From NCBI RefSeq assembly GCF_008326425.1, contig NZ_AP018929.1:1750875-1814874 (forward strand): a DNA stretch of 64,000 nucleotides. Direction: 5' to 3'. Source of the DNA: Sulfuracidifex tepidarius. GTDB lineage: Archaea; Thermoproteota; Thermoprotei_A; Sulfolobales; Sulfolobaceae. The first letter of the stretch is position 1; every line of letters starts with the position of its first letter. The notes under the pieces are model-generated. The model was given only the letters and a program-made list of their open reading frames with translations. It was not told where the DNA came from and did no database searches. A program made the translations under genes and the position numbers. Of this stretch, positions 15,833 to 40,575 are shown piece by piece.

Positions 15833-16621
15833 GTGTTCAATTGTAGTGATACGAAAGTGGTGGTTAAACTCGAGAGTTACGGTAACTATTCTGTTTTAAA
15901 GTTTAATACTGGAGGAAAGTACAATCTTTTTAACATAAAATTTATGACAGATATGATTGATGTACTGAGCAACGTCGAGGAAGATAGAATATCAAGGTTC
16001 TTGATCATTGAAGGTGAAGGAAATTTCGGTACGGGGGCAGATATAACAGAGTTAAAGAAGGCTAATGATGACCTAGAGTTCGCCAGGACTTTCTTCAATT
16101 ACATGAGGCAGATTTATGAGAAAATAATGACCGTCCCCAAGATAGTTATAGCTCTTCCTCAAAACATAGCCTACGGAGCATCAATGGAGATGTTGTTAGT
16201 CTCGGACTTCGTCATAGCTAAGAACGGGACGAAATTCGCTGCACCCGGTGCCAAGCTGGGAGTGTTTCCGCCAGTTCTAGTGAGTATAGGTCCATCAATA
16301 ATAGGCTATCAAAACGCCAGAAGACTTGCTCTAACTGGGGAAGAGATAGACGCGGATGAGGCGATGAGGATAGGGTTAGTGAACTACGTTTCAGAGGATC
16401 CCATGAAGACTGCCTCCGTTTTAATGGAGAAAATGTCTGTCATGGCACCTACATCACTCATATGGATGAAGAAGAACCTAGACTCTAGAATGAAGGATAT
16501 GTTATACGATGCGTTTGAGGATCTAGTAAACCAAGTTCAAAGTGATAACGCAAAGGAGGGAATATTGGCTTTCATAAGCAAGACTAGACCTTCGTGGATA
16601 CCACAACAGAAATCTAGCTGA
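15833..16621 (+). CDS. enoyl-CoA hydratase/isomerase family protein
   Basis: About 262 residues of the crotonase fold. The oxyanion-hole regions are visible: GEGNFGTGADITELKK and PQNIAYGASMEMLLVSDFVI, followed by FAAPGAKLGVFPPV and RRLALTGEEIDADEAMRIGL. The first usual catalytic glutamate position is replaced (YGASMEM), so the exact reaction is open. The outer start is GTG 15833, but the TATA-like TTTTTATACG at about 15812-15820 would place transcription near 15842, so GTG 15857 may be the true start. Its stop overlaps that of the convergent permease gene (TGATCA). Confidence 0.85.
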   Translation: MFNCSDTKVVVKLESYGNYSVLKFNTGGKYNLFNIKFMTDMIDVLSNVEEDRISRFLIIEGEGNFGTGADITELKKANDDLEFARTFFNYMRQIYEKIMTVPKIVIALPQNIAYGASMEMLLVSDFVIAKNGTKFAAPGAKLGVFPPVLVSIGPSIIGYQNARRLALTGEEIDADEAMRIGLVNYVSEDPMKTASVLMEKMSVMAPTSLIWMKKNLDSRMKDMLYDAFEDLVNQVQSDNAKEGILAFISKTRPSWIPQQKSS

Positions 16622-17650
16622 TCACAACCCCGTCTCTCTCAGTCTGAGAAGTCTTCCTGCCACCACGTTAAGAACTATCGTTATTGCAATGATAGAGAAC
16701 ACCAAAGATAGGTTTGGTGCTACATTGTAAACAGTCAGATCTCGTATTACAGTATCTATTAATGATAGAGGCTGATACTCTGCGAAAGGTCTCAGAAATG
16801 ACGGGAAAGCTGATATGGGGAAGAAGGCGTTGCTGAGGAACATTAAAGGAAAGATTAGTGCGCTCACTACGCTTTGCGCTACGAAGAGCTTCTCCTTAGG
16901 TGTCAGCCCGTATATTACAGCTCCTATTGCACCGAACATCATTGTAGAGATCACCAAGAAACCCAGGAACGCTATTCCAGCTATAGGTATGAACCCGAAG
17001 AATATCCCTGTTATCAGAACTGCAGAAGTAGAGATCAACGTGATGATCACGACGTAAAGTATGAGGGAGACTGACCACTCTAGACTCCTGAGAGGAGAGG
17101 CTGCAAGTCTATCAACTACCTTGTCCCTGTAATATCCAGATGCTATGCCTATTAAGCCAAATAATCCATTTGATAATGAAACTATCCCTATAATTCCAGA
17201 TATTAGGTAGTCGTTAAATGTGTAGTTGCTTGTAACTTTAGACGAGAAAGTAACGTTCGGCTCCAATAGGGCTTCCTCCACTATAGCTTTAAGTGAAGGA
17301 ACCAGGGGTTTGTCCTGAAGATTGGTGAAGACGTCTATTGTTCTGCCTTGATTAGTTATGTTAACGTACATGTACCCTTGCCTCATGGCATCTTGGTAAT
17401 TAACTCCGACTACACCGGTGAAGATATTAGAGTCGTTCAGTGCCTTAGCTACCTCTTGAGAATTGTAGCCGTTAACGCTAACAGTTATATGTATTGCGTT
17501 TCCTATTCCACCGAAAACTAGGGGGAAAAGGATAGCCAAAACAACTGGGAAGAATATTATCCAGAAAAGGGCGAACCTGTTCCTGAGGTTATCCTTCAAT
17601 ATCGCTTTCGTCGTGTTAGCTATGTTTCTTACTTTAACCATCAGATTCAC
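16622..17650 (-). CDS. ABC-2 type exporter permease
   Basis: 342 residues with one N-terminal membrane segment (FALFWIIFFPVVLAILFPLV), an extracytoplasmic domain of about 130 residues with several NxS/T sites, and five C-terminal segments, the layout of ABC-2 permeases. SLSNGLFGLIGIASGYYRDK and RLAASPLRSLEWSVSLILYV contain the typical coupling region. Together with the upstream ATPase it would form an exporter of unknown substrate. It overlaps the ATPase gene by 17 bases. Confidence 0.87.
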   Translation of the reverse strand: MNLMVKVRNIANTTKAILKDNLRNRFALFWIIFFPVVLAILFPLVFGGIGNAIHITVSVNGYNSQEVAKALNDSNIFTGVVGVNYQDAMRQGYMYVNITNQGRTIDVFTNLQDKPLVPSLKAIVEEALLEPNVTFSSKVTSNYTFNDYLISGIIGIVSLSNGLFGLIGIASGYYRDKVVDRLAASPLRSLEWSVSLILYVVIITLISTSAVLITGIFFGFIPIAGIAFLGFLVISTMMFGAIGAVIYGLTPKEKLFVAQSVVSALIFPLMFLSNAFFPISAFPSFLRPFAEYQPLSLIDTVIRDLTVYNVAPNLSLVFSIIAITIVLNVVAGRLLRLRETGL

Positions 17651-22708: not shown

Positions 22709-23107
22709 TCATTTGGCTCTGTTAGTTACTTTCTTTACAGTTTCTACATAATTTTTATCCTGAGTTATTATTCCTAAAGGCTTCATAGATTCTAGTTTTG
22801 GAAAAAGTGATACGTCATTTATTCCATCTATTAGCACTGGTGATCTGAATTGATGAATTTCTCTTATACCCATTGGCATATATTCTAGAATTAACAGTTT
22901 TGCCCTTACCTTATAGTCAGGCCTTCTAACTACGAGAGCCTTCTCCGAGGCCTCATTTGGATCTTCCGTTACTTCTATTTCATCTCCTTCAGGATAGAAG
23001 ACTATCTTTTCTTCTTTTCCTCCTTTCATAGCTAATATTCCGTCGAAACCAAGATCGACTATCCTATCCCTGTTTATTTCCCCTGCGGTCTTTAGAATGA
23101 ATTTCAT
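22709..23107 (-). CDS. uncharacterised protein
   Basis: 132 residues, not recognised. It starts MKFILKTAGEINRDRIVDLG and has an alternating strand-helix pattern with FDGILAMKGGKEEKIV, KLLILEYMPMGIREIHQ and SPVLIDGINDVSLFPKLESM. It is soluble and has no cysteines. The pattern of a short alpha/beta protein with a conserved GINDVSLFP loop would suit a small enzyme or RNA-binding protein, but no function can be assigned. It lies between 5S rRNA and segB on the same strand, with gaps of 70 and 155 bases. Confidence 0.75.
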   Translation of the reverse strand: MKFILKTAGEINRDRIVDLGFDGILAMKGGKEEKIVFYPEGDEIEVTEDPNEASEKALVVRRPDYKVRAKLLILEYMPMGIREIHQFRSPVLIDGINDVSLFPKLESMKPLGIITQDKNYVETVKKVTNRAK

Positions 23108-23262: not shown

Positions 23263-23652
23263 TTACACGTTGCTAAACGATGAACGGTATATCTCCTCAG
23301 CTTTTTTGAACAGGTCAGGATACATTTCTTTGAGTCCCTTCTCAAGAGCTTCTTTAGCTATTTTGCTCATTTTGAAGCCTGGAATTGTATTATAAAGATA
23401 TTGGAGAAGTAGAAAAGAAGGGTAGCTCCACACTCCTATCTTTGGGTCCTTGTTCACGAACTTCCTCATTAATTCCTCAATTCTGTCTTCTGGTCTAGAG
23501 GTCGAAGTTCTATCTTCTCCGACCCAGCTTTTTTCAACAGGCTCTGTTCTACTCTCTTCTGTCTCCTCACTTCCTTTTCTTGTCTTCTCTATTCTCTCTA
23601 CTTTGTCCTCTCTTCTTTCTGCTCCTCCCAGAAGGAAGTCTAGTTCACTCAT
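23263..23652 (-). CDS. segB: SegB-like DNA-binding partner of SegA
   Basis: 129 residues. The first 60 residues are charged and low in complexity (many E, R, S, T), followed by a compact C-terminal domain, LMRKFVNKDPKIGVWSYPSF and LYNTIPGFKMSKIAKEALEK, that looks like the ribbon-helix-helix region of SegB from Sulfolobus. Assignment rests mainly on its four-base overlap with segA. SegB binds an imperfect palindrome near its own operon and stimulates SegA; motifs of that kind are abundant here. Confidence 0.8.
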   Translation of the reverse strand: MSELDFLLGGAERREDKVERIEKTRKGSEETEESRTEPVEKSWVGEDRTSTSRPEDRIEELMRKFVNKDPKIGVWSYPSFLLLQYLYNTIPGFKMSKIAKEALEKGLKEMYPDLFKKAEEIYRSSFSNV

Positions 23653-24311
23653 TCTACTATCGCCTTCTCTAGACTCTCGAAGTAACTCTGGAGTCTAGGT
23701 CTCTTGTTTCTGACCTCTTCATACCTGAGTGCTGGAACGCCCAGTCTAGACGCCTCAACGAAAACTCTAGACTGAGGAATGCCTACCTGCACGAACTTAA
23801 CTGAGGAGAGCCCCTCCAGTGATACCGGTTTAGTTGAGAAGTTTGTGAATGATAGAGCTCCCTTCTTGAGGCTGTTGAGTCTAGAGTCTAAGTTCTTCAC
23901 GGCTTCAAGGGAGAGAGGTTGCGGTGTAACTGGAGAGACTATACGATCCGCTACTATCATAGCAGAGACGGCAAGCTTTCCTAAGTTAGGCGGTGTATCT
24001 ATGACGGTGGCGTCGTAGTTCTCAGCTATTTTCCTGATGTCTTTGGTTATCTCATTTATGTCTCCTCCAAGTTCCAGCTTCAGTAGTCCCACGCTTGCGG
24101 GATATACTTCTACATTAAATATGTTCACACTTTTAGTACCTAACTTCACCTCGTTCTGATCCCTCTTTATACCGAAAGAGACTGTAGAGCCTCCCTCTGG
24201 GTCTAAGTCTACTAGGGCTACTTTCCTCCTTTTTGAAAGGTAATAGGATAAGTTAACTGAAGTTGTAGTCTTTCCGACTCCTCCTTTTTGATTAATTACT
24301 GTTACTATCAC
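23649..24311 (-). CDS. segA: SegA, ParA-type chromosome segregation ATPase
   Basis: 220 residues, the length of Sulfolobus SegA. Deviant Walker A is QKGGVGKTTTSVNLSYYLS, the switch region is ALVDLDPEGGST and Walker B is ATVIDTPPNLGKLA. The start is GTG 24311. ParA-like ATPases bind DNA non-specifically and move the SegB-bound locus. segB overlaps its last four bases. Four SegB-like motifs lie within the gene and one overlaps the start codon, so the operon may be autoregulated as well as being the segregation site. Confidence 0.9.
   Translation of the reverse strand: MIVTVINQKGGVGKTTTSVNLSYYLSKRRKVALVDLDPEGGSTVSFGIKRDQNEVKLGTKSVNIFNVEVYPASVGLLKLELGGDINEITKDIRKIAENYDATVIDTPPNLGKLAVSAMIVADRIVSPVTPQPLSLEAVKNLDSRLNSLKKGALSFTNFSTKPVSLEGLSSVKFVQVGIPQSRVFVEASRLGVPALRYEEVRNKRPRLQSYFESLEKAIVE
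23742..23752. repeat. SegB-like site (CAGTCTAGACG)
   Basis: Perfect 8-bp palindrome GTCTAGAC at 23744-23751 within the segA coding region. Confidence 0.5.
23764..23773. repeat. SegB-like site (ACTCTAGACT)
   Basis: Exact copy of the recurrent 10-mer, inside segA. Confidence 0.55.
23876..23890. repeat. SegB-like site (TGAGTCTAGAGTCTA)
   Basis: Contains the 10-mer on the minus strand (AGTCTAGAGT, 23878-23887) with an extra GTCTA half site, inside segA. Confidence 0.55.
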
Positions 24312-24325
24312 ACTCTAGACTCTTG
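24311..24325. promoter_or_regulatory. SegB-like site at the segA start (CACTCTAGACTCTTG)
   Basis: The 10-mer ACTCTAGACT at 24312-24321 abuts the GTG start of segA, the position where a bound SegB could control expression or nucleate a partition complex. Confidence 0.6.
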
Positions 24326-24439
24326 AAAACCTTAGTTTAATAGAGTGACCACTTGATATTACTCTCAAGTGAGACCTCTCAGTTATACCTCATTTTCAAG
24401 ATATGGTTGAAGTAGGCTGAAGAGCATGGAAGGAAGACT

Positions 24440-25483
24440 CTAGAGGAAGTCCGCTATATGCATGATCCTTTTACCGCTTTTCTTCATTACTAGGGAGCAA
24501 GAGGGGTTAGTGCTGATCACTATGTCAGCTACTGAGTACTTCACCTTCTTGTTCTTTTCCTGTATGACCTTATCTGAGATCTCCTGGTTAAAGAGGAAGA
24601 ACGCTCCTCCCGCCCCGCACTCAAACGAGGGGTCCTCCATTTGAACCATGTTTTCTCTATCGTAAAATACATCTATCAGAGACTTAGTTATCCCGAGCAA
24701 GTGAGCATGACAAGGGTAATGAACTGTAAACTTGGTACCTATCCTGATCTGATAGTTCATGGACTTCATGAACTCGTGGAAGTCCATTACGTTTATCCCT
24801 TTTTCCCTCATATGTGCGGTGCAGTTTGATGAAAGGGAAACTAGCCTAGCGTTAGAAGTCCTGGCGCTTGTAGGTATGAGCCGATCTAAGGCTTTGTCTC
24901 CACCTTCTACGTCTCCTTCAGAGTAATGTGCTAGCCCGCAACAACCGTTAAGGATCTTGACTCGAAAACCCTTCTCTTTCAAGAACTTCAAGGCTTTCTC
25001 TACAGTACTTCTAAAGAACGTGGAAGTTATGCAACCGGGTATCAGGTATATGTCTGGATCCATCTCCTCATGCTCAAGAGGCTTCTGTGGATTTTCCACG
25101 AAATTCCTCAGTCTGTAGGAAAACTCCCCGTTACCCTTCGAGACGGCTAAAGTTCCCACGTAAAGTAGACTAGGTCTTTCTAGAGTTTTCAGCATTATTT
25201 TCTTGAACATGTCAGGCTTTCTGGCGCTAGTTATTATCTTGTTGTATTCCACTCCACTTGGACAAGCTATCTCGCATCTCCTACAATACATGCACGTCTC
25301 TATTCCTTCCGTGCTCAACCCCAGTTTAACAGTCAAAATCCTTCCCCTAGGTGAGTGAACTTCGGATCTAGTCACGACGTAAGTGGGGCAACTCTCTAAA
25401 CAGAAACCACAGTGCACGCACTTCCCGATCTCACTTTCAGTAACGCCCTTCTTTCCGTCCATCCTTATCATTCCCATTCCCAC
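24440..25483 (-). CDS. GlcF-like iron-sulfur subunit of a 2-hydroxyacid oxidase
   Basis: 347 residues. Two [4Fe-4S] ferredoxin motifs open the protein (CVHCGFCLESCP and CMYCRRCEIACP), then two cysteine-rich CCG-type regions (LNGCCGLAHY and ECGAGGAFF, with HYPCHAH before the second), as in GlcF, LutA and heterodisulfide reductase B. It would carry electrons from the flavoprotein encoded just upstream to the quinone pool. It overlaps that gene by 16 bases. An ACTCTAGAGG motif covers its stop codon region. Confidence 0.87.
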   Translation of the reverse strand: MGMGMIRMDGKKGVTESEIGKCVHCGFCLESCPTYVVTRSEVHSPRGRILTVKLGLSTEGIETCMYCRRCEIACPSGVEYNKIITSARKPDMFKKIMLKTLERPSLLYVGTLAVSKGNGEFSYRLRNFVENPQKPLEHEEMDPDIYLIPGCITSTFFRSTVEKALKFLKEKGFRVKILNGCCGLAHYSEGDVEGGDKALDRLIPTSARTSNARLVSLSSNCTAHMREKGINVMDFHEFMKSMNYQIRIGTKFTVHYPCHAHLLGITKSLIDVFYDRENMVQMEDPSFECGAGGAFFLFNQEISDKVIQEKNKKVKYSVADIVISTNPSCSLVMKKSGKRIMHIADFL

Positions 25484-26859
25484 ATGACCTTGAGTACCTC
25501 ATCCTGTTTTGGAAGCCTTACGGGCCTGAATATTTTCCAAGGGTTAAACAGATTGTTAGGGTCAAAGGTCTGTTTTATCCTCTTCATTACAGCTATCTCC
25601 TCCTCGTTGTAGTATATCTCTTCTATTCTTATTTTCTCTATTCCTATTCCGTGTTCGCCTGAAGGTACCCCGCCCATAGTGATTGCGATCTTGGAAATTT
25701 TCTCCCCAACTTTCAGGGCATTTAATAGGGACTCTTTGACGTTAGGATCATAAGGTATTAGAGGGTGTAGATTACCATCTCCTGCATGGAAAACATTTGC
25801 TATGAATACTTTCTCCTCTTTCGAAATCTTCTCTATAGACTCTAGAGCTCTAGGCAGAGCACTGCGTGGAACTGTGCAGTCTAGAGTGATGTATGCAGGT
25901 GATATTGCACCCATGGATGGGAAAGCGCCCTTCCTTGCGTTCCAGAACTGATTTTCCTTTCCTTTCGGGTCGATTACTTTTCCGTTATTAGCCTCAATTG
26001 CAGACTCAGTGACGGCTTTCTCTTCAGTAACTTGGGAAGTTGAACCGTCAAGCTCAACTAGTAGCATAGCACTTACATCTGGTAGGTCTGCTTTGTATCT
26101 ACTCCTTTCTATAGCGTAGATGATGTTCCTATCCATGAGCTCAAGGGCGGACGGAATTATCCCTCTTCTAAAGACCTCGACCACAGCTTTTCCGGCATCA
26201 ATTACTGTATTAAACGTGGCGAAAACCGAGACTCTAGACTCTGGTTTGGGGAACAACTTGAGCCTCGCCTTGACTATTGCACCTAATGTTCCTTCTGCCC
26301 CTATGAATATGGAAGACGGGTTTAGCTGCCCATTGTGAAACAGGAGGTCTTCAACATTTCCGTCAGGGAGTATCGTTTTGACCCCTAGAACACTATTGAA
26401 AGTAGGCCCGTACTTGATAACATGTATTCCCCCTGAGTCATGAGATATGTTTCCTCCGATGGATGAAACGGAATAGCTAGCTGGGTCGGGGGCATAGAAT
26501 AAATGGGGAGGAGCGTTCTTAGTTAACATTATGTTAGCTATCCCCGGGCCTACGATTACTTCGTTACCTCTATACTCTTCTATCCTATTGAGCCTTGAAA
26601 GTCCTACAACTATTTCTCCATCAACCGGGATTGAACCTCCGCTCAGACTGGTTCCCGAACCGCGAAAAATGATCTTCTCCCCGTGTTTTATAATTGACCG
26701 GACTACCCTCACAGTTTCCTCTTCGTTTCCAGGTAAAACTACCATGGAAGGGTTTCCTCTGTAAGCCGTGAACCCATCAATACTGAAGAGAGAAGACTCT
26801 TCTCCAGCCATTACCCATTTATCTCCCACTATCTCCTTCAGCTCCTTCTCTAACGTCAT
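25468..26859 (-). CDS. FAD-linked 2-hydroxyacid oxidase/dehydrogenase (GlcD-like)
   Basis: 463 residues of the vanillyl-alcohol oxidase/GlcD family. The FAD-binding part is IIFRGSGTSLSGGSIPVDGE, APDPASYSVSSIGGNISHDS and IGAEGTLGAIVKARLKLFP. The C-terminal part has FHAGDGNLHPLIPYD and PSGEHGIGIEKI, the substrate-side histidines of D-lactate/glycolate oxidases. Which hydroxyacid is used cannot be told. It forms an operon with the GlcF-like gene and shares a 41-base divergent promoter with a GlcE-like gene. Two exact SegB-like 10-mers lie in this gene. Confidence 0.9.
   Translation of the reverse strand: MTLEKELKEIVGDKWVMAGEESSLFSIDGFTAYRGNPSMVVLPGNEEETVRVVRSIIKHGEKIIFRGSGTSLSGGSIPVDGEIVVGLSRLNRIEEYRGNEVIVGPGIANIMLTKNAPPHLFYAPDPASYSVSSIGGNISHDSGGIHVIKYGPTFNSVLGVKTILPDGNVEDLLFHNGQLNPSSIFIGAEGTLGAIVKARLKLFPKPESRVSVFATFNTVIDAGKAVVEVFRRGIIPSALELMDRNIIYAIERSRYKADLPDVSAMLLVELDGSTSQVTEEKAVTESAIEANNGKVIDPKGKENQFWNARKGAFPSMGAISPAYITLDCTVPRSALPRALESIEKISKEEKVFIANVFHAGDGNLHPLIPYDPNVKESLLNALKVGEKISKIAITMGGVPSGEHGIGIEKIRIEEIYYNEEEIAVMKRIKQTFDPNNLFNPWKIFRPVRLPKQDEVLKVMWEWE
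25878..25887. repeat. SegB-like site (AGTCTAGAGT)
   Basis: Reverse complement of the recurrent 10-mer, within the GlcD-like gene. Confidence 0.5.
26230..26242. repeat. SegB-like site (GACTCTAGACTCT)
   Basis: Thirteen-base match to the extended form also found at 40218-40230, within the GlcD-like gene. Confidence 0.5.
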
Positions 26860-26900: not shown

Positions 26901-27776
26901 TTGGTCGAGATAGTAGAGCCAAGAGATTACGACGAAATTAAAGACGTAATTCTCGAAACGTCCAGAGACGAAAAGAAAGTGAAGGTAGTCGGCACTCAGA
27001 GTAACGAGCTCGAAGCAGACAGTGATGTGTTACTTTCACTCAGAAAGATCACGGGGATATTAGATCTCTCTGAGGACGACAACTACGTAAAGGTGAAAGC
27101 CGGCACTCCGTTTCATGAGGTACAGGAATTCTTGAGAAGAAGGGGTTACATGATACCTCATTCATATTGGGGATCTGTGGGTGGTCTGTTCTCGCTGAAT
27201 TTGCCTTCTGTTTTCTCATTTTGGTTCGGCCTTCCCAAGGACATACTGCTGGGCGCAACCATATGCACAGGTCTAGGAGAGGTCGTTAAGTCCGGTGGGG
27301 TAACTACGAAATTCTCCAGCGGTTATAAGATATGGAAAGCCCTTTCCGGATCCATGGGCAAGCTCGGAGTCTTCCTAGATCTCACTATAAAAATCATCAA
27401 GACTCCAGAGGAAATGAGGTTCGTAAAGGTAAAATCTGATGAAGCTTATCCTCTCATGATGTCAAATAAGAGGCCGTGGGGTGTAGCGTGTGGAAACGTA
27501 AGCGGAGAGATTGAGTGTGAAGCACTTTTTGCAGGGTTTAGCAGATCTGTTGAGCAACTTTCCTCAGGCTATGAACCAGGACGTATACAAGAGATTAGAT
27601 CCCCTTTCATAAAGAACACCAGATTAGGAGACGAGCTAAGGATCCTTAATGAAGAGAAGGCCTTAGTCTTTCCTGGCGTTGGGCTTGGAATAGTTGAAAA
27701 GAGGGAAGAAGTTAGACTCACTAAATCTTTCTTGATGCTGAAACGTGCTCTGGATCCCAATTTCGTTCTAGTTTGA
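26901..27776 (+). CDS. FAD-binding (PCMH-type) oxidase subunit, GlcE-like
   Basis: 291 residues from TTG 26901. It contains the N-terminal FAD-binding half of the GlcD/GlcE family: KKVKVVGTQSNELEADSDVL, then VKVKAGTPFHEVQEFLRRRG, SVGGLFSLNLPS, and SSGYKIWKALSGSMGKLGVF. The usual GN-rich loop is altered. It lacks the substrate half of GlcD, like GlcE of glycolate oxidase. The end LKRALDPNFVLV recalls the common terminal DPNNLFNP. With the divergent GlcD/GlcF genes it may form a three-part oxidase, though transcribed apart. Confidence 0.75.
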   Translation: MVEIVEPRDYDEIKDVILETSRDEKKVKVVGTQSNELEADSDVLLSLRKITGILDLSEDDNYVKVKAGTPFHEVQEFLRRRGYMIPHSYWGSVGGLFSLNLPSVFSFWFGLPKDILLGATICTGLGEVVKSGGVTTKFSSGYKIWKALSGSMGKLGVFLDLTIKIIKTPEEMRFVKVKSDEAYPLMMSNKRPWGVACGNVSGEIECEALFAGFSRSVEQLSSGYEPGRIQEIRSPFIKNTRLGDELRILNEEKALVFPGVGLGIVEKREEVRLTKSFLMLKRALDPNFVLV

Positions 27777-33350: not shown

Positions 33351-34489
33351 GTTTTTTCTGCCTTGTCTTTCTTATTGTTTTTATCCTCGATCTTCTTTAG
33401 GTTCCTTATTATTCTAGACTCTATTTTCTCGACAGCCCTCTTTACTGCAACTACTGGATCTCTATCGGAGTCTTTAGCTACGAACTCACCTTCCTTGGTC
33501 ACAGCCCTAACTGTGGCCATGTAAACCGATCCCTCTCCTTGTTTTGCACTTTTTTCCTCCTTGAAAGAAACCTTGAACGTTATGATATCTGATATTTTCT
33601 CTAGTTTAGCTAGGTATCTCTCCACTATAGCGTCTATTTCAGCCTTGAGTTCGCTGTTCTTCCTTATTATCATGGGAATTTTAGCGTCTATAGGTATCGA
33701 TAACTGCATGGATTCAGACACTGCATTTATCACGTCTACTCCACTTAATACTCCTACTATTTGCTCTCCTTCCATGATAGGAAGGCCTGATACGTTCTTA
33801 TCTAGCATCTTTTCTAGAGCCCCCTTTAACGATTCGTTAGCTTTAGCGGTAATTACTGGGTATTTCATGATTTCCTTTACACATGTTGCCATTATTCTTT
33901 CTTCCTCTGTCATGATGCTTGATTTCTTTTTATCTATCACTGAGTAGAGGGTATTCACCACGTCTCTTACTGAGACTATTCCAACTAGCTTGTTGTCTTC
34001 AACTACGGGCAGTCTTGATATTTTATCCCTTAGCATTATCCACCTTACCTTGGCTATGCTTTCACTCTGTGATATCACCTTGGGAGGAGAAGACATGTAC
34101 TTCCTGGTCTTCTCGTTATCTGGGACCTTCTTCTGTTCTAGCAAGTACCTTATTATTGACTCCCTAGTTATCTCCCCCTTCAAGTTCCCTTTGTTGTCAA
34201 TTACTGGTATCACTCTGGCTTTGGTCGTGTAGAACTTTCCTATTATTTTAGTGAAATCACTGTTATCTAAAAGGGACACCGTGGGTGACATCACCGATGA
34301 AACTTTAGAGTCTAGACTAACCCTTCTAGAGAGTAGGTCTTTATATGAGAGTAACCCTACGAGCACTTTTCCCTTGACTACCGGGGCAGTCCATGAGTTT
34401 GTTTCTCTCATTTTAGGAATAATTTCAGATAATCGGTCATTAGGCGTAACAGTTAATTTCACTTCCGAGATTAGCTCTCTTGCTGACAT
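33347..34489 (-). CDS. four-CBS-domain protein with C-terminal ribosome hibernation factor-like domain
   Basis: 380 residues from the ATG at 34489 (a GTG at 34498 would add three). Four CBS repeats can be followed at roughly residues 5-60, 65-115, 130-180 and 205-260, each with the IPVID- or LPVVE-type strand and GxxxxxDV end (for example KLVGIVSVRDVVNTL and QIVGVLSGVDVINAV). The last 100 residues, LKAEIDAIVERYLAKLEKIS and DPVVAVKRAVEKIESRI, have the helix-strand pattern of HPF/RaiA proteins that bind the small ribosomal subunit. CBS domains bind adenosine nucleotides, so nucleotide-controlled ribosome dormancy is a reasonable inference. Confidence 0.82.
   Translation of the reverse strand: MSARELISEVKLTVTPNDRLSEIIPKMRETNSWTAPVVKGKVLVGLLSYKDLLSRRVSLDSKVSSVMSPTVSLLDNSDFTKIIGKFYTTKARVIPVIDNKGNLKGEITRESIIRYLLEQKKVPDNEKTRKYMSSPPKVISQSESIAKVRWIMLRDKISRLPVVEDNKLVGIVSVRDVVNTLYSVIDKKKSSIMTEEERIMATCVKEIMKYPVITAKANESLKGALEKMLDKNVSGLPIMEGEQIVGVLSGVDVINAVSESMQLSIPIDAKIPMIIRKNSELKAEIDAIVERYLAKLEKISDIITFKVSFKEEKSAKQGEGSVYMATVRAVTKEGEFVAKDSDRDPVVAVKRAVEKIESRIIRNLKKIEDKNNKKDKAEKT
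34305..34330. repeat. SegB-like perfect palindrome plus second half site
   Basis: TTAGAGTCTAGACTAA at 34305-34320 has the fully symmetric core AGTCTAGACT (34309-34318); a second TCTAGA follows at 34325-34330. It lies in the CBS-HPF coding region, about 10 kb from segAB, and is the closest match to a symmetric SegB site in the window. Confidence 0.55.
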
Positions 34490-34504
34490 TTGAAACACGA
34501 TAAA

Positions 34505-34517
34505 GTATTTTTAAAGC
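34505..34517. promoter_or_regulatory. shared TATA element of divergent HDAC-like and CBS-HPF genes
   Basis: GTATTTTTAAAGC is centred about 23 bases before the ATG at 34534 on the plus strand and about 22 bases before the ATG at 34489 on the minus strand. One AT box may serve both leaderless genes. Confidence 0.55.
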
Positions 34518-34533
34518 CACAATTAAAAGACTA

Positions 34534-35604
34534 ATGAGACCTTTGTTAGCACATAAAACTGTTTTTGTGTGGAGTGACCTTTACTACAACTATTCCTTCC
34601 CTGGAGATCACCCTTTTAAGTCAATAAGGGAAAGCCTGACAAAGAAGTACTTGGAACAGAAAGGACTGTTTCACGAGATAGAACAAGTAGCGCCTGACCC
34701 TGTAAGTGAAGATATGCTTCTGGAAGTTCACTCAAGAGAATATGTAAACCAGATCAAGAGAATGAGTGAACGTGGTCAGGGGATGCTCGACGAGGGAGAT
34801 ACACCAGCATTTAGGGGAATTTTCGAGGCGTCCTTAGTCAGAGTAGCAGGCAACCTGAAAGCACTTAAGGAAATAGAGAGCGGAAATTTCGTTCATGCGG
34901 TTAACATAGGAGGAGGTCTACATCACGCTAAGAGGGACTCCGCAGGAGGCTTCTGCGTCTTCAACGACATAGCTATCTTAGTGAAGGAGGCAGAGAAGAG
35001 ATACCAGCGTGTCGCAATACTTGACATCGATGGTCACCATTTCGACGGCACGCAGTCTCTCCTCTATCAAGATGATAAATCCCTAAAGATCTCCATGCAC
35101 ATGTTCCATCCTAATTTCTTCCCGGGATCTGGGTCTATAAATGAAATAGGGGAAGGTAAAGGGAAAGGGCTAACAGTCAACATTCCACTCCCCCCTGGTA
35201 CTGCTGACGACGCTTACTTGATGGCGTTCAACGAGGTGGCCTACCCTGTCCTAGAAAGGTTTAAGCCAGAAATAATAATCCTTGAAGTGGGGGGAGACTC
35301 TCACTTCGGGGATCCGTTGGTAGAGCTCAAGTTAAGTACCATGGGATACGCGGAGGTAATAAAGAAAGTTCACGAACTAGCTCACCGTCTTTCTGAAGGG
35401 AGGCTAATAATGACTGGAGGAGGAGGGTATAACTACGACGCTACAGCTAGAGTCTGGACTCTAGCAATAGCAGAAATAGCTGGAATCAAAGAGACAGAGC
35501 TAGATTTGCTCCATGACTGCTGTTCTACCGCGTCGACTCCTTTTGTAATTGAGAAGGTAAAGAAAATTGTGGAAAAATTGAAAGAGGTTCATCACATTAG
35601 TTAA
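34534..35604 (+). CDS. histone deacetylase/acetoin utilisation family amidohydrolase
   Basis: 356 residues with the arginase-like deacetylase fold. Zinc and charge-relay residues are seen in [49 protein letters not shown] and [16 protein letters not shown]. Archaeal members may act on acetyl-lysine proteins, acetylpolyamines or other amides; the substrate is not visible. It is divergent from the CBS-HPF gene with a 44-base gap holding one TATA element, and its end overlaps the convergent purT by eight bases. An imperfect 20-base dyad of SegB type lies inside it (35447-35466). Confidence 0.88.
35447..35466. repeat. imperfect dyad GCTAGAGTC-TG-GACTCTAGC
   Basis: Two 9-base arms that are exact inverted copies around a TG centre, each carrying the GAGTC/GACTC half of the SegB-like motif, inside the HDAC-like gene. 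Confidence 0.45.
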
Positions 35605-36787
35605 CTACTATTAATGCTGAGGCTTTCCTTACTTTCTCTAAAGCTTCAGTTGGATTATCCCCCGTAGCCAGAACGACCCCCATCCTTCTCTTTGGATATG
35701 TGGACGGCTTACCAAATAGCCTGACTTGAACATTAGGTATCTCTAGAGCCTTGTCAACGTTTTGGAACTTGGGAGCCCATTTTGAGTTCTCGGCCAAGAT
35801 CACGTGTGAAGCCGCAGGAGAGACTAACTTAACGCTGGGCGTGAAAAGCCCTAAGGCACTCCTAACATGGACTTGAAACTCGCTTATGTCTGAGCTAGCT
35901 AATGTGACGAGCCCCGTGTCGTGGGGTCTAGGAGAGACCTCACTGAAGAGCACCCTTTCACCAGTAACTATGATCTCAACACCATAGATTCCCAGACCTC
36001 CGAAGCCCTGCACTGTCTTTTTAGCTATCTCCTTAGCTCTCTCAGCTATTTCCTTCCTTACAGTGTATGGATGCCACGACTCCACGTAATAGTAAGATGG
36101 TCTGCGGTGTTCTATAGGCTCATATTGCCCTATTTCTGCCTTCCCGTCGCTGTTCATTGATCTGTATGTGAGCACCGTCAGTTCAGTGTCGATCTTTACG
36201 AATTCCTCGACTATTACCTTTTTGCCTTTACCTCTGGCGTGAGAAATCGACTCCTGATAGCCTTTTGCAACTTCATCTGGAGATTTTATCAGAACGTGTC
36301 CGTGTCCACTGGAGCTCATCTCGGGTTTCACGAGGCAGGGGAAGCCTACGTCTTTGCACGCTGACATGACCTCGTTCTCGTTTTCAGCGAAGTGAAATGT
36401 CGTCGTGGGTAAACCCAGCTTATTGGAGGCGAAGTCCCTTAATTCCAGTCTGTTCATGCAAGTCTTCACTGCAGTAGCGTTAGGAGCAACTCTAAAGCCG
36501 TCGTCCTCAAGCTCCACTAATGCGTCCGTGTTTATGGCTTCTATCTCAGCTATGACAGCATCGGGGTTTTCTCTCCTTATGATTGCCTTAATTGCATTAG
36601 GATCCATCATGTCAACTACGTATTTCCTGTGGGAAACATGCATAGCTGGCGCGAAGTCATATCTATCTACCACTACTGTTTCGACGCCTAGCCTCTGAGC
36701 TTCTATAACCATCTCTTTGCCTAGCTCTCCTCCTCCTAACCAAAGGAGTTTCTTAGAACCCTCAAATAAAGGTGAACCTATATTCAC
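35597..36787 (-). CDS. purT: formate-dependent phosphoribosylglycinamide formyltransferase (PurT)
   Basis: 396 residues, the standard PurT length, an ATP-grasp enzyme that makes formyl-GAR from formate in purine synthesis. Characteristic parts are [80 protein letters not shown] and [20 protein letters not shown]. The start is GTG 36787. It is followed upstream on the same strand by a PD-(D/E)XK protein whose stop lies 13 bases before it, so they may share a transcript. Confidence 0.93.
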
Positions 36788-36800
36788 GTGTGGACATCAA

Positions 36801-37397
36801 TTATCTAGATAATAAGCTTTCTATAAGTGAAAATAGCCTATTCCCGTCCTTAATCACGTTTTGTACGTACAACCATCCGTTAGGCACGCGACAACTTGAC
36901 CTGAAAGCTATTGCGACGACTCCTTTCCTAAAGAATCTGGAATATGCCCTTATCTGTCCTTGGTCTACGGAACTAACTTTAGCTTCAACTGCTACATTTC
37001 CGTTCACTACAAAGTCAGGTCTGTTGTGATACTTTACTCCGGTCAATTTGGATAGGGAAACGAATTGCTCCTTTTGCCTCTCGACATGAAACTTTTTCGA
37101 CAGTAAGTTGTAAACGTAATCCTCGAACAACTTACCTTCAACTCTGTTGATTTCGATCGTCCTTTCTTTCTCATCAGGGAAGCACAGCAAGGAGTTTGGA
37201 TCTATTTCAACGTTTACCTTGCTTGCGATAACTTTGACTCTCTCGACTCTAGGGTCTTCTTTAAACTTAAAATTCAGAATTTTTTCTCCTTTAGAGTCTA
37301 AAACTGTAACTATTCCTCTACCACAGAGTACCCTAAGACTTCCATTTTCGGATGGAGTTATCAACCCGTCTACAAGGTCTGCGTTATAAATAATCAA
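36801..37397 (-). CDS. PD-(D/E)XK nuclease-like protein
   Basis: 198 residues from TTG 37397. The C-terminal half shows a restriction-endonuclease-like core: a glutamate helix in VEGKLFEDYVYNLLSKKFHV, then YHNRPDFVVNGNVAVEAKVS, which gives the PD...(D/E)xK set (RPDF, VEAK), and QGQIRAYSRFFRKGVVAIAF. The N-terminal 95 residues are beta-rich and unassigned. No methyltransferase or other restriction partner is next to it; instead purT follows in the same orientation. A role in DNA repair or in cutting foreign DNA is possible. The family assignment is by motif only. Confidence 0.7.
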   Translation of the reverse strand: MIIYNADLVDGLITPSENGSLRVLCGRGIVTVLDSKGEKILNFKFKEDPRVERVKVIASKVNVEIDPNSLLCFPDEKERTIEINRVEGKLFEDYVYNLLSKKFHVERQKEQFVSLSKLTGVKYHNRPDFVVNGNVAVEAKVSSVDQGQIRAYSRFFRKGVVAIAFRSSCRVPNGWLYVQNVIKDGNRLFSLIESLLSR

Positions 37398-37455
37398 GCT
37401 GAAGATCTAAAAAGATCAGAGACTTTAAATCTTAGCCGTAAAATCAGTCGTCTGG

Positions 37456-38109
37456 ATGTTCGAAAATTACGTTACCCTAAACGATGTGTTGTGGGGTATT
37501 GTGCTCACGGTCTGGGTAGCTCTCGTGACAGTTGTAATCTCCAAGTATGTAGCTAAACTGACAACTATATACGTTGCAAGGAAGATCATACACATGCTTG
37601 GAGGAGGCGTAGTTGCTATATTGTCACCTTTCATTTTCTCTTCCCCATTGATTCCGATTCTAGATTCATACCTACTTATGGGCATCCTTCTTTACGTGAG
37701 GTTCAAGAAAGAAGGTTTCAATTGGTTTCAGGAAGAGGGAAATTACGGGGAAATCTTCTTCACGTTTTCCTTCGGCACACTTCTCCTCCTCATGTGGGTA
37801 ATTGATCCAAACTATTGGTATTCAAATGACGTCTTTATCGCCATTCTTCCTTTAATCTTCATGTCCTTCGGTGACGGCGTTACTGGGATCATAAGAAACT
37901 ATGTATACAAGAGAAGAGTCAAGGGACTTTGGGGATCTCTAGGGATGTTGGTGTTCTCCGCTATTGTAGGTTACGCAGTGTTCTCGATACCCGGTTTGAT
38001 AGCTGGAGTGATAGCTACAGTCGTCGAAGTCCTTCCTCTAGTTGACGACAATATTTCCATTCCTTTTGCTTCCTTTGCAGTACTCTATCTCCTGATCAAG
38101 GTATTCTAA
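37456..38109 (+). CDS. dolichol/phytol kinase-like membrane protein
   Basis: 217 residues with about seven membrane spans. Motifs shared with SEC59/VTE5/CdsA-type CTP-dependent kinases are present: [39 protein letters not shown] and [17 protein letters not shown]. It would phosphorylate a polyprenol, possibly dolichol for N-glycosylation or a lipid alcohol, with CTP. The substrate is inferred from the family only. The gene has a 58-base gap to the divergent nuclease-like gene and is followed by a candidate antisense sRNA. Confidence 0.78.
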
Positions 38110-38164
38110 TCAGACAGGGAAACGATCTTCATCAATCGGTAAACCATCACGTCATCACGCTGGC
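38106..38164 (-). ncRNA. candidate C/D box sRNA
   Basis: The minus strand reads GTGATGA (box C, 38158-38152), a 12-base guide CGTGATGGTTTA, CCGA (imperfect D'), TTGATGA (C'), a guide AGATCGTTTCCCTGT and CTGA (box D, 38113-38110). This is the layout of archaeal 2'-O-methylation guide RNAs. The missing D'-C' spacer and the long second guide are atypical, so it is a candidate only. It slightly overlaps the end of the kinase gene on the opposite strand. Confidence 0.5.
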
Positions 38165-38271
38165 TTGTAACTTAGTCTATCTCTGCTTATAAAAAGCTGA
38201 AACGAGGGTTAAAATTATCTACATATTTTGAAACTGAAGAGCTAAACTCTAGTCAAGCTCTTAACCAGGGT

Positions 38272-38718
38272 ATGCCCTCTTTTCATATGCAATGGTTAAT
38301 GGATTCTCTCCAGATGGCGTGGGACGATTACGCATCAATATTTGAGGATTACTCGAATGCCGCAGTTTACGTGGATCGTATAACTTCTACGGTGCAAGCT
38401 GTCAAGGTAAGCGACATAGGCGATTTCTATTCGAGTTTCTCAGTTCTCCTTCAGGGAGGATATCTGTCCAAGTATAAGCCAGTTTACATCAAACTCGAAA
38501 AGTATGTGGCTTTCCCGACGCTTAGAGAAAACGTAGCTGTCAGGCTCTCTAGATTGAAGGGATGGAGAAGGGTAAGTTACTACGTGGAATGGAATCACGT
38601 TGCCTCGTGGGTCATAAAGGACTGCTTCAGGTGTGAAGCGGAACAGAAAGCCCACATGGAGATAAAGGAAGCTGGGCTTTCTGATGATGATCTAGTGAGG
38701 ATACACTCTTCTCTCTAG
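38272..38718 (+). CDS. uncharacterised protein
   Basis: 148 residues, not recognised; ATG codons at 38272, 38287 and 38299 are possible starts. The sequence is soluble and aromatic-rich, with SLQMAWDDYASIFEDYSNAA near the start, YLSKYKPVYIKLEKYVAFPT in the middle and WVIKDCFRCEAEQKAHMEIK near the end, where CFRC could be a partial metal site. The final residues overlap the end of the convergent flavin oxidoreductase by four bases. No neighbour suggests a function. Confidence 0.65.
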   Translation: MPSFHMQWLMDSLQMAWDDYASIFEDYSNAAVYVDRITSTVQAVKVSDIGDFYSSFSVLLQGGYLSKYKPVYIKLEKYVAFPTLRENVAVRLSRLKGWRRVSYYVEWNHVASWVIKDCFRCEAEQKAHMEIKEAGLSDDDLVRIHSSL

Positions 38719-39722
38719 AGTTCGTGTGGCTCTCTTCCAAGATCGAAGTCCTTAATTCCGTTGAACCTATCTAGAATGTACGATTTTCTTTCTTCTCCTT
38801 TATCTATCATCATTTCCAAAAGCATAGCCATCCCCGGTCCTACCTCTGCACCGTAACCGTTCAAGCCACCTACTAGGTAAAGGTTGTCCTTGAGCCTGCC
38901 GTAGAGAGGTCTCATGTCAGGTGTTCCCTCGCAGAAGTTACCTGAAACGTATATTGAGCGTGATTCAAACCTCCTTCTGATTCTCGAGATCACCAACTCT
39001 CTGTCCTTGATTTCTGGTTTCCTCATGTTTCCATCCTCAGGCGGTTTCATTTCAATTATATCGCCATCTCCTGCTATAAATAAGGGAGAACCTATCCCTA
39101 TGGCAGGTCTAGAGTAGAAACCTAACACGTAATCATAAACAATGAACTTGTCCAGCTCCCTTCTGTGTCCTTTCATCAATGACGCCCAGCAATAGTACGG
39201 CTTTAAAGGTAATCTCTCGTCGATGATATTACTGTTCCAGCTACCAGCGGTTAAGACGAAGATGTCGAAGTCTTCAGTCACATCTTTTCCATTAGCTTTC
39301 ACCGTAGCTTTCTTCTCACCCGTGGAGATCTCGACCTTAGCCTTCTCTTTGGGTACACTTACTAGGTTCCTTATGTCCACCAACGAGTCTCCTCCTTTAG
39401 CTTCTATTGCCTTCTCGCCAATCCAATCCACGTAAGTTTCTCTCGCCGAGACTCCGTGCTCCCTCCAAGACGAAACTAGGTCATCACTGACTTCTCCCAA
39501 AGTATAGGAAGTGAAGTCCATCCTCTTGATCCTATACTTATTGTAGAACTGTAACGAGAGAGACGCTAGTTCTATATCACATCCCTTCAAAAGTAAGGAA
39601 TGTATCAACGTTGGGAACTGGGTTTTTATCGAAGCATCAAATACTTTCACTTCATGTCTTTCAGATAGGATCCTGTAAAGCGAACTGCCTACTATACCCC
39701 CTCCGATAATTCCGATCTTCAA
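38715..39722 (-). CDS. FAD-dependent oxidoreductase (DAO family)
   Basis: 335 residues from TTG 39722. It is related to D-amino acid oxidase, glycine oxidase and glycerol-3-phosphate dehydrogenase: the N-terminal dinucleotide fold is KIGIIGGGIVGSSLYRILSE, DIFVLTAGSWNSNIID is the second FAD contact, and the C-terminal DNLYLVGGLNGYGAEVGPGM is the family's final glycine-rich loop. It lacks clear membrane segments. The substrate is unknown; many Sulfolobales members act on sarcosine-, proline- or glycine-like amines. It is divergent from the nucleotidyltransferase-like gene, 46 bases away. Confidence 0.82.
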   Translation of the reverse strand: MKIGIIGGGIVGSSLYRILSERHEVKVFDASIKTQFPTLIHSLLLKGCDIELASLSLQFYNKYRIKRMDFTSYTLGEVSDDLVSSWREHGVSARETYVDWIGEKAIEAKGGDSLVDIRNLVSVPKEKAKVEISTGEKKATVKANGKDVTEDFDIFVLTAGSWNSNIIDERLPLKPYYCWASLMKGHRRELDKFIVYDYVLGFYSRPAIGIGSPLFIAGDGDIIEMKPPEDGNMRKPEIKDRELVISRIRRRFESRSIYVSGNFCEGTPDMRPLYGRLKDNLYLVGGLNGYGAEVGPGMAMLLEMMIDKGEERKSYILDRFNGIKDFDLGREPHEL

Positions 39723-39768
39723 ATCAGGTACAGCATCCTTTTAACTTGAGCGAGTAAAAACGCTTCCG

Positions 39769-40575
39769 ATGAGAGTAGTAGAGGGATACTTACTAAGATA
39801 TAAAGGAGGAGTTTGGGCTGTCAAAGGATGTGACCACCCTCAGGGGTACGTTGTAGCACTCCCGCGGGAGATAGACGGTTTAAAGGTTAAACGGATCAAG
39901 GAAGGGATGTCGATTGTGAAAGAAAGGTTTCCAGCGCTGATTAAATACTATGACAAGATAGGATTTGAGGTTCCATTGATACCCCTTAACGAAAGCCACG
40001 TGATAGACCCGTTCACCATTGTTCCCAAGGATTCAGTTTCAAGGGAGTTCGCCTCTTTCTTTCCGGGGGTAGGAATCACGGGTAGTATGGCGTACAGCGA
40101 CTCCTGGAGGGATGTGGATTTCCTGTCTTTCAATCCTAGAGACTATGAAACTCTTCTTCGCATGAGGAATGAAGGCAAAACTTCTCCTCTATTCACGATA
40201 CAGGAAAACGAAATGGAGACTCTAGACTCTTCGTCGTTCAGAAAGCTGAAACAAGAGAGGGTAACTGAAGGAGTTTACAAGGGGATGGAATACACTTTCA
40301 AAATAGTAGAATGTTTTGAATTCCCTCCAGTTGAAGGGAGAGAGGAGTTTCACGGAGAAGTGGAAATACTTCGTGAAGTGAAGCCACATACTCTTCCAGT
40401 GGTTTATTTAGCAAGGGATAGTCAAGGTAATAAATTGAGTCTGACCTCGTTCAGAACTAGGTTCGCAGACCTAAGGAAAGGGGATAAGCTAACTGTCAAG
40501 GGGACGATCCTTAAAAGGAGGGGAGGTTTCCTTGACCTTGATCTCGATATTGCTGAGATAGTATCTCTTCTGTGA
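39769..40575 (+). CDS. nucleotidyltransferase-like protein with C-terminal OB-like region
   Basis: 268 residues. Near residue 105 the segment GITGSMAYSDSWRDVDFLSF has the GS...DxD pattern of the DNA polymerase beta-type minimal nucleotidyltransferase fold. The preceding 100 residues begin with a strand-rich unit (GYLLRYKGGVWAVKGCDHPQ) and the last 65 residues, LRKGDKLTVKGTILKRRGGF plus LDLDLDIAEIVSLL, look like an OB-fold nucleic-acid-binding domain. I do not know a characterised protein with this layout. The 3' end overlaps a convergent membrane-protein gene by 65 bases. Function is unknown. Confidence 0.7.
   Translation: MRVVEGYLLRYKGGVWAVKGCDHPQGYVVALPREIDGLKVKRIKEGMSIVKERFPALIKYYDKIGFEVPLIPLNESHVIDPFTIVPKDSVSREFASFFPGVGITGSMAYSDSWRDVDFLSFNPRDYETLLRMRNEGKTSPLFTIQENEMETLDSSSFRKLKQERVTEGVYKGMEYTFKIVECFEFPPVEGREEFHGEVEILREVKPHTLPVVYLARDSQGNKLSLTSFRTRFADLRKGDKLTVKGTILKRRGGFLDLDLDIAEIVSLL
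40218..40230. repeat. SegB-like site (GACTCTAGACTCT)
   Basis: Same 13 bases as at 26230-26242, inside the nucleotidyltransferase-like gene. Confidence 0.5.

Follow-up and report, generated by a model that had tools for sequence, protein, structure and literature searches.

Our analysis suggests with high confidence that a stretch of 64,000 bases of the Sulfuracidifex tepidarius chromosome (hereafter the window, positions 1,750,875-1,814,874 of a genome of 2,560,765 bases) carries the SegB-binding region of this chromosome, which would work as a centromere-like and chromosome-organising zone on which the ATPase SegA would act. Five observations carry this reading: the presence of SegB-type sites, their clustering around the segAB gene pair, the conservation of the cluster in related genomes, selection on synonymous codons within the sites and a phasing of 7 bp. 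The segA and segB genes are adjacent and overlap by 4 bp. In phmmer searches the segB product matches two solved SegB structures, 7duv over residues 51-127 (E = 2.9e-30) and 7dv2 (E = 2e-29), and it has the ribbon-helix-helix (RHH) domain of the solved protein. No Pfam ParB match was found for this product, and as its fold is RHH it is not a ParB-family CTPase. Orthologues of segA are present in 29 other genomes of the family.

The motif itself is not new. A first-pass annotation of the window had singled out the TCTAGA-centred dyad ACTCTAGACT. It constitutes the core of TCTAGASTCTAGA, the SegB site determined in S. solfataricus (Saccharolobus) by chromatin immunoprecipitation and sequencing (ChIP-seq) and published in 2025 (PMC12284271). 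As that annotation proposed, the motif is of the SegB type, since it equals the published one and the adjacent gene encodes SegB. The pattern was thus correctly recognised, but the 10-mer is not the unit. What was published is a palindrome of 13 bp in which two TCTAGA flank a central S, and the 10-mer, AC-TCTAGA-CT, is the same 7-bp pattern in another phase: one TCTAGA, the junction bases and, on each side, the nearest base of the next unit. In relatives, TCTAGASTCTAGA was located by motif search and found to cluster near segAB in several genera; of the published sites, 83.7% are intragenic (PMC12284271). The cluster described here is therefore a published phenomenon seen in another genome, and both its proximity to segAB and its mainly intragenic placement were already known. 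The adjacent, overlapping segA and segB genes and the clustered TCTAGASTCTAGA are found here as for SegAB of Saccharolobus solfataricus and Sulfolobus acidocaldarius (PMC12284271), but in a different species. To this system our study makes three additions, namely selection at the codon level, a site conserved within segA and the phasing of heptads. The main text of PMC12284271 is silent on selection among synonymous codons, on a 7-bp phasing that continues past the 13-mer and on a segA site shared across the family, and it does not speak of heptads or spacing. Selection on codons and the spacing of 7 bases appear to be new detail.

Exact copies of ACTCTAGACT are present at all seven places listed in the first-pass annotation (17077, 23764, 23878, 24312, 25878, 26231 and 40219), as are the symmetric AGTCTAGACT at 34309 and weaker forms at 23668, 23691, 23744, 24433 and 25840. 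The seven copies compare with 0.45 +/- 0.59 expected in the window, and none of 100 dinucleotide shuffles reached that number; the claimed excess holds, but not the accompanying expectation of 0.12, which assumed even base composition. One-mismatch forms add little, as their excess is much weaker (16 vs 8.5 +/- 2.6). A pattern search of the whole genome returned 13 exact copies, more than half of which are those of the window. Five of these lie within 2.5 kb at segA, where 0.025 would be expected (binomial P ~4e-11). When sites are counted as TCTAGASTCTAGA with up to two mismatches, 18 of the 82 in the genome are located within 20 kb of segA, compared with 1.28 expected (P ~7e-16). These approximately 18 sites occupy 24 kb, with their highest density in segA and in the two genes upstream of it. 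Most are in coding sequence, including the GlcD-like gene, and the proposed halo at 33-40 kb is real, with seven published-type sites between 33413 and 40226. Motif density is not uniform over the chromosome, as every 20-kb stretch whose start lies outside 1.70-1.80 Mb has four sites or fewer. Over-representation of the motif genome-wide was considered and rejected, the reversed control pattern giving 92 sites against these 82. As the motif is no commoner than its control, only its placement is special.

The regional analyses covered the segAB regions of the family and 20 control stretches remote from segA. The 21 Sulfolobaceae genomes compared have 103 sites no more than 3 kb from segA, whereas permuted motifs average 2.7 and reach at most 16; 13 of the 103 belong to a repeat array in segB of the genome denoted G007. 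The control stretches harbour zero to two sites per 20 kb. In orthologous genes, site density is 0.75/kb at distances up to 1.5 kb but only 0.05/kb at more than 15 kb. Clustering at segAB thus emerges as a general property of SegB sites, extended to a genome that the published experiments did not cover and to 21 genomes of the family. Individual sites are replaced over time while the cluster persists. The genus mate G002, which is 72% identical to this region, retains nine sites within 10 kb, but site-by-site conservation between the two genomes is weak outside segA. The mean identity of the sites is 0.78, compared with 0.72. GlcD orthologues adjoining segAB have nine sites in 14 genes, whereas those elsewhere have none in nine genes (P = 0.016, which is only suggestive as the genomes are related). 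Since G002 has the cluster but few unchanged sites, and GlcD genes have sites only beside segAB, position rather than gene seems to be conserved.

The G007 array has features of its own. In this member of another Sulfolobaceae genus, segB (L069) contains 13 copies of the 36-bp repeat GLESTLKREEEK, each of which carries TCTAGAGTCCACA, a SegB site with two mismatches. This segB gene may itself be an array of sites for its product. The copies are virtually identical. The long SegB repeats of another genus, g10, lack the site.

What maintains the sites is the choice among synonymous codons, under selection that is independent of the host proteins. Ser-Arg pairs are written TCTAGA in 38 of 57 cases (67%) in segA, in 55 of 261 (21%) at 0.4-6 kb and in 29 of 292 (10%) far away. 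The last share is that expected from codon usage, and those near segAB are 2-7 times higher. The other reading frame gives the same excess, Leu-Asp/Glu being spelled TCTAGA in 102 of 846 cases near segAB and 48 of 1106 far from it (P = 3e-10). In contrast, the reverse-order control, AGATCT for Arg-Ser, shows no excess (12/196 near vs 24/242 far). As the genomes are related, the P values of these tests overstate independence; the reverse-order control shares this flaw and is nevertheless flat. Among the 169 testable columns of segA, codon conservation beyond codon usage ranks Ser188 first, Ser181 second and Ser143 fourth (z = 19.6, 17.4 and 13.8, respectively), with a z of 8.2 for the codon of Arg189. 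The conservation at synonymous positions in relatives that the first-pass annotation had put forward as a check is therefore borne out, the three TCTAGA Ser-Arg pairs being among the strongest codon constraints of segA. A SegB site is predicted at segA base ~419-433 in most genomes of the family. These data provide direct sequence evidence for selection on the sites apart from the proteins in which they sit, and they identify segA codons that could be synonymously recoded to probe a centromere role. The third-ranked synonymous constraint of segA is the GTG codon of Val217 at the end of the gene (23660-23668). It lies immediately ahead of segB and may well reflect the translation start signal of this overlapping gene.

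Past the 13-mer, the sites also continue as degenerate heptads of 7 bp. We considered the exact TCTAGA copies up to 6 kb from segA, leaving out segA itself and collapsing orthologues (n = 129). In the sequence around them, resemblance to TCTAGA peaks at offsets 7, 14 and 21 among all offsets from 7 to 34, with a heptad z of 8.0 as compared with 1.6 or less for other palindromic hexamers tested. The effect is weaker at 6-12 kb and has disappeared by 12-20 kb, as it has in the far stretches. While offset 7 restates the known 13-mer, offsets 14 and 21 go beyond it. Of 26 offsets outward from 13-mer sites, the third heptad scores highest (2.22) and the fourth next highest (1.88), compared with 1.52 +/- 0.14, and the junction base is G or C in 66% of cases, compared with 36% at the next position. 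In the window, we saw no run of four good contiguous units, and the best three-heptad match is 17 of 20 at 35446.

This phasing ties the archaeal system, in a testable manner, to the RHH centromeres of the omega type. Omega, the RHH ParB of pSM19035, binds a single 7-bp repeat weakly as one dimer, whereas neighbouring dimers bind with high affinity (PMC9499535), and SegB was described in a review as wrapping DNA in an omega-like left-handed superhelix (PMC9178275). The two systems have in common an RHH DNA-binding protein, a ParA-type partner and 7-bp repeat units. They differ in that omega parS consists of 7-10 contiguous WATCACW repeats at promoters, while degenerate arrays of two to four TCTAGAS units are scattered in genes here. 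ATPase activation by omega parS requires at least four contiguous good repeats, which are not found in this case. We thus propose that the SegB sites work like omega parS without being members of that class, and we claim no homology. The similarities to bacterial chromosomal ParB-parS are the palindromic sites clustered near the par genes and the ParA-type partner. Unlike in those systems, SegB is an RHH protein, and its published peaks are narrow, without long-range spreading (PMC12284271). These narrow peaks leave the wider 'loading zone' suggested earlier unsupported in the sense of spreading.

Work on relatives has shown that SegB binds such sites in vitro and in vivo, that the DNA is compacted and looped there and that segregation is defective in the absence of SegAB. 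Here, too, RHH dimers of SegB, made from the adjacent gene, would recognise TCTAGA heptads spaced by 7 bp, probably one dimer per heptad and several side by side on each short array by analogy with omega of pSM19035. The arrays would then be bridged into a single nucleoprotein cluster for the ParA-type ATPase SegA to act upon, generating a centromere-like, chromosome-organising zone. That SegB of this species binds these sites is predicted from the sequence, and we infer that the region directs segregation. The term 'centromere' is reasonable by analogy, albeit unproven. We give even chances to a more specific proposal: a regional centromere defined by position and tolerant of site turnover would be written into coding sequence, its degenerate heptad arrays, with one RHH dimer per 7 bp, being kept near segAB by synonymous selection on whatever genes are there, around a conserved core in segA.

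Several points weigh against a centromere-like zone. In relatives, SegAB is not essential and SegB sites also occur elsewhere on the chromosomes (PMC12284271), so that a single discrete centromere is not established. Single sites turn over rapidly, as only two of 18 are unchanged in G002, the segA start site and a site near the segA end. Furthermore, the region does not mark an origin; a link to one was ruled out, the nearest of three orc1/cdc6-type genes being ~177 kb away. Alternatively, the cluster might be a hub for chromosome folding, in the sense of A-compartment organisation, with segregation affected only indirectly. The authors of the SegB ChIP-seq study lay emphasis on the organisation and looping of the chromosome as well as on segregation (PMC12284271). 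We regard this alternative as possible but the less probable one, since all genomes examined show the clustering at segAB and the partner SegA is of the ParA type, both of which favour a direct role as well; the two readings overlap. It is improbable that the sites are operators through which SegB regulates segAB and its neighbours rather than a segregation or organisation element: the published study leaves autoregulation open, but most sites are inside genes, as are the published ones, and they reach 16 kb away. Lastly, although SegA does have conserved Ser-Arg residues, the idea that such pairs in similar genes spell TCTAGA by chance, as a by-product of protein or codon constraint, is rejected as highly implausible in view of the near and far TCTAGA shares, the excess in the other frame and the GlcD orthologues elsewhere in the genome that lack sites.

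Table. Genes and predicted SegB sites of the segAB region (window coordinates)
Feature	Position	Strand	Remarks
segB	23263..23652	-	129 amino acids; RHH site-specific DNA-binding protein; phmmer matches to solved SegB structures
segA	23649..24311	-	220 amino acids; ParA-type ATPase; GTG start; Pfam AAA_31 3.6e-29
Outer site group, segB side	16477..17091	.	Sites 16477 and 17079
Two predicted SegB sites near segA end	23668..23699	.	23668-23680 (unchanged in G002) and 23687-23699
TCTAGA at Ser188-Arg189 of segA	23745..23750	.	Noted earlier at 23744
TCTAGA at Ser181-Arg182 of segA	23766..23771	.	21 bp from next TCTAGA; noted earlier at 23764
Two predicted SegB sites overlapping in 7-bp phase inside segA	23873..23892	.	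Codons ~140-146
TCTAGA at Ser143-Arg144 of segA	23880..23885	.	Conserved core; noted earlier at 23878
Predicted site	24314..24326	.	1 mismatch; location of published 'site 1', same place in several genera; unchanged in G002
Predicted SegB site in GlcD-like gene	25834..25846	.	TATAGACTCTAGA; 1 mismatch
TCTAGA of 10-mer 25878, GlcD-like gene	25880..25885	.	No second good half
Two predicted SegB sites overlapping in 7-bp phase, GlcD-like gene	26226..26245	.	
SegB-like site in second flavin adenine dinucleotide (FAD)-binding gene	27397..27409	.	2 mismatches
Outer site group	33413..40226	.	Sites 33413, 34304, 35446/35453 (7-bp phase), 37241, 37290 and 40214

Downstream of segB, a gene for a protein of 132 residues (22709-23107) belongs to no Pfam family, and its sole match among the other segAB regions examined is in G002. 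Another small site group is located beyond the window, at genome positions 1716697-1725682, some 50-60 kb from segAB, with exact 10-mers at 1,716,702 and 1,718,736 (~57 kb away) and 13-mers at 1,715,089 and 1,725,670.
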